This document shows positions 59,384-64,000 of a stretch of DNA of 64,000 bases, one piece after another. This stretch comes from Asticcacaulis taihuensis (GTDB lineage Bacteria; Pseudomonadota; Alphaproteobacteria; Caulobacterales; Caulobacteraceae). The DNA is taken from the NCBI RefSeq assembly GCF_900100255.1, contig NZ_FMTS01000002.1, positions 273,400 to 337,399 of the forward strand. The letters run 5' to 3'. Within the stretch, counting starts at the first letter, position 1. Every line of letters starts with the position of its first letter. The translations under genes were made by a program, and so were the position numbers. The notes under the pieces were generated by a model. The model saw nothing but the letters and a program-made list of their open reading frames with translations. It searched no databases and was not told the origin of the DNA.

Positions 59384-60298
59384 CTATTCTATTTTGAGCG
59401 CGACCGGTTCCTGCTTGCGCAGGGACAGCGAAATCACCGTGGCCAGGATCAGCGCCGTGCCCAGCCAGTCATAAAGGCCAAAGCGCGTTCCCAGCCAGAT
59501 AATGCCGATCAGGGCCGCCGCCAGCGGTTCGGCGCAGGCCAGCAGGCTGGAGGTTTCCGGCCCGACGATCCGCACCGCCGTCAGATAGGCGTAGAAAGGG
59601 ATCAGGGTGCCAAAGACGATGACAAAAGCGAAGGCGCCTATGGCCGGCACATCCCAGGTGCCGGCCATAGCCCAGGGCGGATGAATGACACTGAGCGCCA
59701 GCCCGCCGATCAGCATCCCCCAGCCGATGACGATGGGCGGCGAATAGCGCGACATAAGCGTAAGCGGCTGGATGGAATAGAAGGCCAGGGCCACCGCCGA
59801 GGTCAGCCCCCAGACCAGGGCCATTTTCGAGACCGACAGGCTGTTGAGGCTGCCATGGGTCACCATGAAGAAGGTGCCGGCCACGGCCATGACGACGCAC
59901 AGCAATTCAAACGGTGTCGGCCAGCGCTTTTTCTGCCAGGCGAACCAGCCGACGATCAGCACCGGGCCGGTATATTGCAGGACGGTCGCCGTGGCGGCGT
60001 TCGAGGCATTTATGGCGGCAAAGTAAGTATATTGCACGGCCAGCATACCGAACAGGCCAAAGACGGCCATGCGCAGGGCATCGGCCTGGCGGGTCCAGAC
60101 GGTGAAGAGGTCGCGCGGCGCACGCAGGGCCACAAAACCCAGCATCAGTACACCGGCCATCAGCATCCGCACGGCCACCAGCCATTCGGTATTGACCCCG
60201 CGATGGGCAAAAAGGAACTGCCCGGCCGTGCCCGATACGCCCCAGAGCAGGGCGGCGCCAAACGCCAGTCCGCAGCCTTTGAGATAGTCGGGTTTCAT
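59384..60298 (-). CDS. EamA-family (DMT) exporter
   Basis: The 304-residue protein is an integral membrane protein with ten predicted hydrophobic segments in two EamA repeats, as in RhtA-type exporters of amino acids or metabolites. Near-characteristic are GVSGTAGQFLFAH at the start and a TSSLLACAEPLAAALIGIIWLGT stretch in the second repeat. The substrate is unknown. It lies 32 bp behind glmS-coding DNA on the same strand but is transcribed after glmS only if there is read-through in reverse order; it is in fact upstream of none of the glm genes' functions. Confidence 0.85.
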   Translation of the reverse strand: MKPDYLKGCGLAFGAALLWGVSGTAGQFLFAHRGVNTEWLVAVRMLMAGVLMLGFVALRAPRDLFTVWTRQADALRMAVFGLFGMLAVQYTYFAAINASNAATATVLQYTGPVLIVGWFAWQKKRWPTPFELLCVVMAVAGTFFMVTHGSLNSLSVSKMALVWGLTSAVALAFYSIQPLTLMSRYSPPIVIGWGMLIGGLALSVIHPPWAMAGTWDVPAIGAFAFVIVFGTLIPFYAYLTAVRIVGPETSSLLACAEPLAAALIGIIWLGTRFGLYDWLGTALILATVISLSLRKQEPVALKIE

Positions 60299-60330
60299 GG
60301 TGCGCCGCCTTTACAAAGAGGCGCGCAGTC

Positions 60331-62169
60331 CTATTCCACGGTCACCGACTTGGCAAGGTTGCGCGGCTGGTCGACATCCGTGCCCTTGTGGACGGCGGTG
60401 TGATAGGCCAGAAGCTGGATCGGCACCGAATAGACCAGGGCAGCGATGAAGGGATCGCAGTCCGGCGCCTGGATCACCTTTAGCGATTTGGCGGCATCGC
60501 CGGAAAGGGTCGGCACTTTTTGCGGGGCATTGGTGATCATTATCACCCGGCCGCCGCGCGCCGCCACCTCCTGCACATTCGAGGCTGTCTTCTCGAACAG
60601 CTCGTCATCGGGGGCAATAACCACCACCGGCGTGTTCTCGTCGATCAGGGCGATCGGGCCGTGCTTCAGCTCGCCGGCGGCATAGCCTTCGGCGTGGATA
60701 TAGCTGATTTCCTTGAGCTTGAGCGCGCCTTCCAGCGCCAGCGGATAGGTTTCGCCACGGCCGAGATAGATGACATCACGCGCCTTCGACAGGTCATTTG
60801 TGATGCGGACGATGTCGCCATCCATGCCGAGCGCCTCGGCGATCAGACCAGGTGCGCCAAGAAGAACCTGCGCGAGGCGGCCTTCTTCGGCGGCATTGAT
60901 CCGGCCGCGCTGGGCAGCGGCAGTTACGGCCAGCGACAACAGGGCCGACAACTGAGCAGTGAAGGCCTTGGTCGAAGCGACGCCGATTTCCGGACCGGCA
61001 TGGGTGGGCCACAGCAGGTCGGCTTCGCGCGCCATGGTCGAGGTATGGACATTGACCACAGCGGCCGTTTTCAGGCCCTGTGACTGGCACCAGCGCAGGG
61101 CGGCCAGGGTGTCGGCGGTTTCGCCCGACTGCGAGACGGCGACCGCCAGAACGCCAGGCATCATGGCCGGGCTGCGATAGCGGAATTCCGACGCCACCTC
61201 GACATCGACCGGCAAACCGGCCAGTTTTTCAAAGGCATAGCGCGCGATCGAGCCGGCATAATAGGCGGTGCCGCAGGCGATGATCTGCAAACGCGAAACG
61301 GTGGAAAAATCGACACCCGCCTTGATGTCGGCGCGCACACCGCCGGTCACCGGATCGAGATAGGCGGTAAGCGTGCGCTGCGTGCTTTCCGGCTGTTCGT
61401 GCACTTCCTTTTCCATGAAGTGACGGTAGCTGCCCTTTTCGACCAGGGCGGCCGAGGCGGAAACGGTGACGGCCGGACGATTGACCAGATTTCCCGCAGC
61501 ATCGTGGATTTCGGCGCTGTTCTGGCCGAGGACGACCCAGTCACCTTCTTCCAGATAACTGACGCGGTTGGTAAACGGGCCGACGGCCAAGGCGTCGGAA
61601 CCGAGATACATCTCATCGCCGCCCCAGCCGACGACCAGCGGCGAGCCGCGGCGCGCGCCCAGTATGGTGCGATCTTCGCCGTCGATCAGGATGGCCAGGG
61701 CATAGGCGCCATGCAGGCGATCGAGCGTGGCCTTGAAAGCGTCGCGTAAGGGCGCGCCTGTGGCCAGCTCGGCATTCAGAAGGTGGGCGATGACTTCGGT
61801 GTCCGTATCAGAGTCGTACACCTCGCCTTGCGCCATCAGGCCGGCCTTCAGCTCTGCGAAGTTCTCGATGATGCCGTTGTGGACCACCGTCACCTGGCCG
61901 AAATGATGCGGGTGGGCATTGCGCACCGATGGCGCGCCGTGGGTGGCCCAGCGCGTATGGCCGATACCGACCTGGCCCGCTAAGGGCTCGTCTTCGATAG
62001 CGGTTTCCAGATTGCGGATCTTGCCCTCGGCGCGGCGGCGCTCTGTGCCCTTGGCCGTCTGCACGGCGATACCGGCTGAATCGTAGCCGCGATATTCGAG
62101 GCGGCGCAGGGATTCCAGCAGACGCGGCGCGACGGGTTCATTGCCGATAATACCGATGATTCCGCACAT
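60331..62169 (-). CDS. glmS: Glutamine-fructose-6-phosphate aminotransferase
   Basis: GlmS makes glucosamine-6-phosphate, the first step to UDP-GlcNAc. I start at the ATG at 62169 so that the catalytic cysteine (MCGIIGI) is residue 2 and becomes the N-terminus; the frame is open 15 codons further up. The 612-residue protein has the glutaminase domain (HTRWATHG, HNGIIEN, DTDTEVIAHL) and two SIS domains (IACGTAYYAGS, VSQSGETADTLAAL, LGRGETYPLALEGALKLKEISY). It ends in KSVTVE. It is divergent from glmM, which performs the next step. Confidence 0.98.
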   Translation of the reverse strand: MCGIIGIIGNEPVAPRLLESLRRLEYRGYDSAGIAVQTAKGTERRRAEGKIRNLETAIEDEPLAGQVGIGHTRWATHGAPSVRNAHPHHFGQVTVVHNGIIENFAELKAGLMAQGEVYDSDTDTEVIAHLLNAELATGAPLRDAFKATLDRLHGAYALAILIDGEDRTILGARRGSPLVVGWGGDEMYLGSDALAVGPFTNRVSYLEEGDWVVLGQNSAEIHDAAGNLVNRPAVTVSASAALVEKGSYRHFMEKEVHEQPESTQRTLTAYLDPVTGGVRADIKAGVDFSTVSRLQIIACGTAYYAGSIARYAFEKLAGLPVDVEVASEFRYRSPAMMPGVLAVAVSQSGETADTLAALRWCQSQGLKTAAVVNVHTSTMAREADLLWPTHAGPEIGVASTKAFTAQLSALLSLAVTAAAQRGRINAAEEGRLAQVLLGAPGLIAEALGMDGDIVRITNDLSKARDVIYLGRGETYPLALEGALKLKEISYIHAEGYAAGELKHGPIALIDENTPVVVIAPDDELFEKTASNVQEVAARGGRVIMITNAPQKVPTLSGDAAKSLKVIQAPDCDPFIAALVYSVPIQLLAYHTAVHKGTDVDQPRNLAKSVTVE

Positions 62170-62447
62170 ATGCCGGGCTCCTTTTCGCCAGTGATGCCAA
62201 AATGCGACTTTCAAATAGCATATGGAAAATAAATTTGCTATAAATTCGTATTGCGAAAAATTGCTACCCGCCCACTGATTTCTATCGAAAATTCGCCATT
62301 AATTTAATAAATTTGCCATTTGCACACGAAACGACGCGAAATTTACAATTCGTGACGAGAAACGCCACACGTTTACGCAATAAATTAATTGCAAATTAGA
62401 TGATGCAGGCTTATCAAGCCAGAAATCAGGCGCAAGGAGCCGGTCAG
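62170..62447. promoter_or_regulatory. AT-rich glmS-glmM divergent control region with repeated AATTYGC motifs
   Basis: The 278-bp gap is far richer in A and T than the genes around it. AATTTGC or AATTCG(C) and the complements recur at 62232-62238, 62243-62248, 62253-62264 (GCGAAAAATTGC), 62286-62296, 62310-62316, 62336-62343, 62347-62352 and 62391-62397. This density suggests operator sites for a shared regulator. No glmS ribozyme is expected or seen in this phylum. Confidence 0.5.
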
Positions 62448-64000
62448 ATGAGCGACAACAAGTGGGAAAAATTGCAGGCGGCCGTCAGCGCCTCCGGCAT
62501 TTCCATCAAAGACGTGGCCGAAGCCGCCTCCATCGCCCAGAGCAGCATTTTCCGCGCCCTGAATGGTTCGACCAAGGCGCCGCGCCCCGAAACCGTCGAC
62601 AAGCTTGAGGCCGCTTTCGTCGCGCTCCTGACCCAGAAGATGGCCGACTACCGCCAGGCCCTGTCAGTTTACGGCTATAACCCCATCCGCAACCGCAACG
62701 AAGAAATGGCCACCCATATGCCCGCCATGACCCAGACCCGCAAATATTTCGGCACCGATGGCATCCGCGGCCGGGCCAATACCTTCCCGATGACGGCCGA
62801 GGTCGCCTACCGCGTCGGCATGGCCGCCGGCAAGATGTTCATGTCGGAAACCGACCGCCGCCACCTGGTCGTCATCGGCAAGGATACACGCCTGTCGGGC
62901 TATATGATCGAGCCGGCCCTGGTGGCGGGCTTTACCTCTGTCGGCATGGATGTGCGCCTGTTCGGCCCCCTCCCCACCCCCGGCGTGGCGATGATGACCC
63001 GCTCGATGCGCGCCGATCTGGGGGTCATGATCTCCGCCTCGCACAACGCGTTCGCCGATAACGGTATCAAGCTGTTCGGCCCCGATGGCTACAAGCTCTC
63101 CGATGAGGTCGAGTTGGCTATCGAGGCGCGCATGGATGGCAATATTCTGGTCGGCGTGGCCGACCCGCACAAGCTCGGCCGCGTCGCCCGCGTCGATGAC
63201 GCCCAGTGGCGCTATGTCGAAATCGCCAAGGCGACCTTCCCGCGCCACCTGACCCTGAATGGCCTGCGCATCGTACTCGATTGCGCCAATGGCGCCGCCT
63301 ACAAGGTAGCCCCGCTGGCCCTTTATGAACTGGGCGCCGAGGTCTTCCCGCTGGGCGTGACGCCGGACGGCCTCAACATCAATGAAAAGTGCGGCTCAAC
63401 CCAGCCGCAGGCCATGGCCCAGAAGGTCAAGGAACTGCGCGCCGATATCGGCATCGCGCTCGATGGCGACGCCGACCGCGTGGTGATCTGTGATGAACAC
63501 GGCCAGATCGTCGATGGCGATCAGATCATGGCGATTGTCGCCGGTGCTTTGGCGCGCAAGGGCCTGCTCAAGGGCAACGGCCTGGTGGCCACGGTCATGT
63601 CGAACCTCGGCCTGGAACGCCACATGCAGAAGCTCGGCCTGTCGCTGGAGCGCACCAAGGTGGGTGACCGCTATGTCATGGAACGGATGCGCGAAGGCGG
63701 CTTCAATATCGGCGGCGAGCAATCCGGGCACGTCATCCTCAGCGACTACGCCACCACCGGCGACGGCCTGATCGCCGCGCTTCAGGTGCTGGCCGAGCGG
63801 GTCGAATCCGGCAAACCGATGAGCGAGCTTGGCCGCCAGTTCGACACAGTGCCGCAACTGCTGAAGAACGTGAAATACACCGGCCAGAACCCGATGGAAC
63901 GCGAGGCGGTCAAGCAGGCCATCCGTGACGGTGAGGAAAAGCTGAAGGGTACCGGCCGTGTGCTGGTGCGCCCCTCCGGCACCGAGCCGCTGATCCGCGT
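62448..64000 (+). CDS. glmM: Phosphoglucosamine mutase with an N-terminal helix-turn-helix extension, C-terminus beyond the right edge
   Basis: GlmM converts glucosamine-6-phosphate to glucosamine-1-phosphate. From residue 94 the protein matches Glm[11 protein letters not shown], the phosphoserine loop ISASHN with Ser198 (position 105 counting from Met94; Ser102 in E. coli), the metal loop [14 protein letters not shown], and [11 protein letters not shown] at the edge; about 25 residues are missing. The frame is open without interruption back to an ATG at 62448 with a strong AAGGAG 9 bp upstream. Residues 1-85 read as a helix-turn-helix of the XRE/LacI type ([23 protein letters not shown]). 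Met87, Met91 or Met94 could be internal starts but lack a good ribosome site. Confidence 0.88.

Follow-up and report, generated by a model that had tools for sequence, protein, structure and literature searches.

A Helix-Turn-Helix Domain Fused to Phosphoglucosamine Mutase in Asticcacaulis and Candidate Operators between glmS and glmM

PutA, BirA, and NadR are trigger enzymes that carry their DNA-binding domain in the same chain, and for them sensing is established; to our knowledge, none of the three is a sugar-phosphate mutase. Control of glucosamine-6-phosphate supply is known from enterics and Firmicutes, where it involves the glmS riboswitch, the GlmY/GlmZ RNAs, and NagC. The closest published design that we found is BzdR, in which a helix-turn-helix (HTH) is fused to a shikimate-kinase-like domain whose enzyme activity is reportedly lost, and which controls benzoate genes (PMC3602430). 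Our literature search (titles and abstract openings; open-licence PMC papers) found no report of an HTH-GlmM protein, and no account of UDP-GlcNAc supply in relation to wall growth in Alphaproteobacteria was found in the open-licence PMC papers searched.

The window analyzed here is a stretch of 64,000 nucleotides from Asticcacaulis taihuensis (contig NZ_FMTS01000002.1), and all positions below refer to it. Its glmM gene unites in one chain a DNA-binding domain (HTH_3) and an enzyme that is competent by sequence alone (TIGR01455, intact motifs). Through this HTH and two palindromes at glmS/glmM, GlmM probably exerts direct control over its own supply.

The fused reading frame and its start

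The frame opens at ATG 62448, enters GlmM at 62739, and stays free of stops as far as the window end at 64000. On the genome contig, the fused protein is 542 aa from this ATG, within an open frame of 558 aa from the upstream stop that ends normally. The N-terminal addition comprises 97 residues, an Xre-type HTH plus linker, and is followed by a complete GlmM. We take the divergent frame at 60331..62169 to be glmS, a name given from its sequence.

60331..62169, minus strand: glmS, encoding glutamine-fructose-6-phosphate aminotransferase; lies divergently and is the proposed target (ORF and layout)
62434..62439, plus strand: AAGGAG, Shine-Dalgarno-like, 8 bases 5' of ATG 62448 (anti-SD energy)
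62448..62627, plus strand: Xre-type helix-turn-helix, residues 1-60 (HTH_3 at residues 16-57; AF2 model)
62628..62738, plus strand: linker (residues 61-97), modelled as helical and including Met91 (alignment, pN/pS, AF2)
62739..64000, plus strand: GlmM, phosphoglucosamine mutase, from residue 98; the gene continues beyond the window (TIGR01455, motifs)

The first-pass annotation had described a continuous frame leading from an ATG with a strong ribosome site into a complete GlmM start, as we also find (AAGGAG, stop-free to the window end); the HTH part that it placed ahead of GlmM exists, but is 97 residues long rather than about 85. Across Asticcacaulis, 19 N-termini align gapless over 104 columns with a mean column identity of 82%, which rules out a hidden frameshift. 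Among 10 representatives, pN/pS was 0.25 in the HTH region (residues 1-60), 0.44 in the linker (61-97), and 0.14 in GlmM itself (its first 270 aa), and third codon positions were the most changeable. On this evidence, the N-terminal frame is coding and under purifying selection. Chance open frames of such length were found before other GlmM genes, and an open frame by itself is no proof of translation; however, the gapless orthologues refute a chance frame or sequencing error, and the excess of third-position changes, the HTH_3 match in all 19, and the ribosome site speak against an untranslated frame, an explanation to which we assign a negligible probability.

Pfam HTH_3 matched the N-terminus with an E value of 1.6e-6 and 28.5 bits, above the gathering score of 23, and matched each of the 19 orthologous N-termini at E values up to 0.01. 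AF2 returned a five-helix model of residues 1-97 with an apparent HTH (mean pLDDT 81). A full-length AF2 run with 10 close orthologues (mean pLDDT 37) was set aside, and structural statements rest on the 97-residue model. The linker is otherwise variable, with Y75, G76, N78, P79, N84, and A88 kept besides an invariant Met91 that stands beside His90 (19/19). A search for the origin of the HTH did not find it; the best PHROG phage-regulator match was 1.3e-6.

A second possibility raised by the annotation was that the HTH peptide and GlmM are made from separate starts in one frame. The Met91 codon (62718-62720) is invariant in 19/19 despite the variable linker, as two products from one frame (long HTH-GlmM and plain GlmM from Met91) might predict, and in one sequence (L006) anti-SD pairing is indeed stronger at Met91 (−5.6 kcal/mol) than at Met1 (−4.3). 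In the other 18 of 19, however, Met1 is the stronger site, which weakens the case for separate starts: mean energies were −5.4 kcal/mol for Met1 and −2.3 for Met91, the latter weaker even than at the other internal Mets (−3.3; 19 sequences). Pairing at Met1 was weak (−2.4 to −3.3) in six subclade C sequences. Four sequences (L008, L009, L010, and L025) have a stop codon immediately 5' of Met1, which fixes their start there. A minor short form from Met91 thus finds little support in the sequences, and we regard it as improbable.

From residue 98 on, the protein is a full GlmM that scores 593 bits against the NCBIfam equivalog TIGR01455, above its curated cut-off of 447.55. Solved GlmM structures align only from query residue 96-99, and the 97 residues of HTH and linker are extra here. 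The motifs SASHN (196-200), DGDADR (339-344), GEQSGH (423-428), and RPSGTEP (508-514), which we take to be the catalytic serine and the metal- and phosphate-binding motifs of GlmM, are invariant in 10/10 aligned sequences. The fused protein is the sole GlmM of the genome (one further match is 27% identical) and is therefore predicted to be enzymatically active.

Candidate operators between glmS and glmM

The glmS-glmM intergenic region measures 278 bp (62170-62447) and holds two 18-bp palindromes of the form YGC-N12-GCR. GlmM of Staphylococcus aureus is described as dimeric (PMC6368335), and a dimeric GlmM would be suited to a palindromic site.

62203..62220, no strand: glmS-side candidate operator TGCGACTTTCAAATAGCA, ending in TAGCA (PWM, pattern count)
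62216..62240, no strand: TAGCA-N15-TGCTA inverted repeat, operator or paired promoter elements
62376..62393, no strand: glmM-side candidate operator CGCAATAAATTAATTGCA, 54 bp 5' of the fused start (palindrome score, PWM)

These motifs were spotted by eye first and the tests came after. We compared 28 intergenic regions, 19 upstream of fused and 9 upstream of plain glmM genes, leaving out L024 (without glmS) and the near copies L042 and L043. Scored against the 12 fixed positions of YGCAAT-N6-ATTGCR, 17 of the 19 fused regions reached 10-12 and all nine plain regions 7-8, so the glmM-side palindrome is present in 17/19 fused and 0/9 plain regions. In 300 dinucleotide shuffles, 16 of these 17 were significant at p < 0.05, the exception being L025 (53/300). 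Over 10 regions, the major-base frequency averaged 0.81 inside the palindrome, compared with 0.49 and 0.53 for its flanks. The two fused regions without the palindrome (L015 and L019, from G013 and G001) retain the HTH and have a shorter intergenic region of 184-185 bp.

A position weight matrix (PWM) trained on the glmM-side sites of other subclades and evaluated with 200 mononucleotide shuffles detected a second site, at p values of up to 0.035, in 16/19 fused regions and in none of the nine plain ones (none at p under 0.15). This site lies near glmS in 10/11 subclade A/B regions (p 0.000-0.035), although in L010 the glmS-side site ranks second; in subclade C, all six regions have a second site (p 0.000-0.005), about 33 bp off the A/B glmS-side position. 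L006 (p 0.135), L015 (p 0.10), and L019 (p 0.12) were not significant.

On the glmS side, TGC-N10-TAGCA occurs in 19/19 fused and 0/9 plain regions, as does the TAGCA-N15-YGCYA form of the inverted repeat. TAGCA alone is present in 8/9 plain regions, which suggests that this older promoter element acquired a further half-site before glmS. The conserved TAGCA is the probable −10 of glmS, read on the minus strand as TGCTA, which in our view resembles the Caulobacter housekeeping −10, GCTANAWC.

These same features allow another explanation, namely, that the palindromes are sites of a different regulator or promoter elements, and that the HTH serves other DNA targets, oligomerization, or localization. 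The element TAGCA predates the fusion, two fused species do without the glmM-side site, and bacterial −10 elements can look like half-sites. Against this, none of the 9 plain regions, those of a plain clade nested among fused relatives included, has the added TGC half-site or the palindrome on the glmM side, and exact palindromes are rare elsewhere; we therefore consider this explanation unlikely. A promoter scan gave one plus-strand sigma-70-like match versus 0.7 expected, at neither palindrome, which counts against our own model below. No Rfam family matched in 60200-64000.

Counts of the exact palindrome in 25 genomes ranged from 0 to 3 each (0-1 for a control pattern); the window's genome has two copies, one being that at glmM. 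Of five places elsewhere that we read, none looks clearly like a promoter site: in four, the palindrome sits within a long coding frame (three of the four being one gene in three species), and in the fifth it falls between convergent frames. This exact-palindrome search of 25 genomes, with the reading of five places, revealed no wider regulon, a pattern that fits a local regulator.

Distribution, gain, and loss of the domain and sites

The fusion, which the annotation had proposed looking for in Asticcacaulis and Caulobacter glmM genes, recurs elsewhere in Asticcacaulis: 19/25 genomes carry the fused N-terminus, in frame with GlmM in 19/19, five encode a plain GlmM (G003, G010, G012, G022, and G024), and in one (G009) glmM is cut by a contig end. 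Named carriers are A. benevestitus, A. machinosus, A. currens, A. aquaticus, A. endophyticus, strains AC466 and YBE204, and three MAGs. In one MAG locus (L103; G014:C70:3000-7000), the fused GlmM passes by eye into S1-like sequence after about residue 370, a junction that is probably a misassembly.

A related-locus search returned 13 loci, 10 of them from Asticcacaulis; the other three, from different phyla, are short matches to the HTH only. Among 149 genomes of the family, the N-terminus as query recovered 18 of the 23 Asticcacaulis genomes sampled, plus a single weak hit in a different genus (28% identity; frame of 259 aa). A GlmM search of the family matched 296/299 genomes; among the matches listed, only those from Asticcacaulis align from residue 1 or 2. 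At the class level, the HTH profile matched this genome plus one weak case (253-aa frame) among 385 genomes, and the GlmM profile matched 140 of 152 genomes. We inspected 14 long-frame class GlmM genes, which are all those of at least 530 aa except the window's, plus one of 512 aa; frames of 501-516 aa (e.g., G322, 516 aa) fell outside this set. By eye, none of the 14 has an HTH before GlmM, and their upstream frames read as chance. One candidate that aligned from residue 29 (G192) was rejected as a fusion, its upstream frame reading by eye as antisense glmS. Among the family and class genomes sampled, no homologous fusion was seen in other genera.

The divergent glmS-glmM arrangement is found in 30/31 loci (24 from the genus and 7 outgroups), which indicates that the HTH joined glmM inside an old divergent pair. 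The exception, L024 (G024), has a plain GlmM without an adjoining glmS, and a different frame occupies the glmS place; the GlmM-only tree leaves the placement of L024 unresolved. In a GlmS+GlmM tree of 29 rows, the plain sequences with adjoining glmS (L020-L023) form a clade (98/94) that is sister to the window's fused subclade (100/100 together) and nested in the fused genus. The branches starred in this tree require two or more changes, for which a single gain plus a single loss is the simplest history; a tree uniting all fused rows was not rejected (p-AU 0.19 for GlmS+GlmM, 0.11 for GlmM alone). Because these four plain relatives nest in the fused group, the HTH domain and the sites were probably lost together in the plain clade. 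Because related genomes are not independent, the link between domain and sites comes down to a single gain and a single, probable loss.

Proposed control of glmS and glmM, compared with known systems

The annotation's proposal that the enzyme doubles as a regulator of glmS/glmM gains support from candidate operators that track the HTH and from the divergent layout; the sensing of glucosamine phosphates that it added is taken up below more cautiously. The simplest account, which we think likely, is that the protein is a working GlmM enzyme whose N-terminal Xre-type HTH makes it, in addition, a repressor of glmS and of its own gene. The 542-residue HTH-GlmM, presumably as a dimer, would convert GlcN-6-P to GlcN-1-P and bind both 18-bp palindromes between glmS and glmM. 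It would cover the glmS −10 on one side and the region just 5' of its own start on the other, and, once bound, may repress both genes, the sign of regulation being our inference. Substrate or phosphorylation state may in turn affect DNA binding.

A fuller version of this model, which we advance tentatively, is that glucosamine-phosphate flux (by substrate loading or active-site phosphorylation) toggles the HTH on the glmS and glmM operators, so that GlmM would set transcription of the pathway entry enzyme and of itself; the system would have been gained once in the genus and later dropped, with its operators, by one clade. All of the operator evidence fits equally well a plain concentration-based autoregulator, in which the HTH binds both sites, metabolites and catalysis are uninvolved, and GlmM only carries and dimerizes the domain. 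That the domain is attached to the very enzyme acting on the GlmS product would point to coupling instead, although this is an argument of design only, and we view the plain autoregulator as possible, if rather doubtful. If GlmM does bind its own and the glmS promoter, it would offer a compact way of matching UDP-GlcNAc supply to wall growth, and close relatives without domain and sites would form a natural comparison for an enzyme gaining and losing a regulatory role.

Like the glmS riboswitch, GlmY/GlmZ, and NagC, such control would balance amino-sugar supply, but those are RNAs or separate proteins, unlike the fused HTH-GlmM. With PutA, BirA, and NadR it shares the joining of an enzyme and a DNA-binding domain in one chain, seen here at the sequence level, and it would share, under our model, control of its own pathway. 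Its architecture is most like that of BzdR among the published designs that we found: both have an N-terminal DNA-binding domain, a linker, and an enzyme-derived C-terminal domain, but HTH-GlmM keeps its enzyme motifs and has no second GlmM in the genome (PMC3602430).
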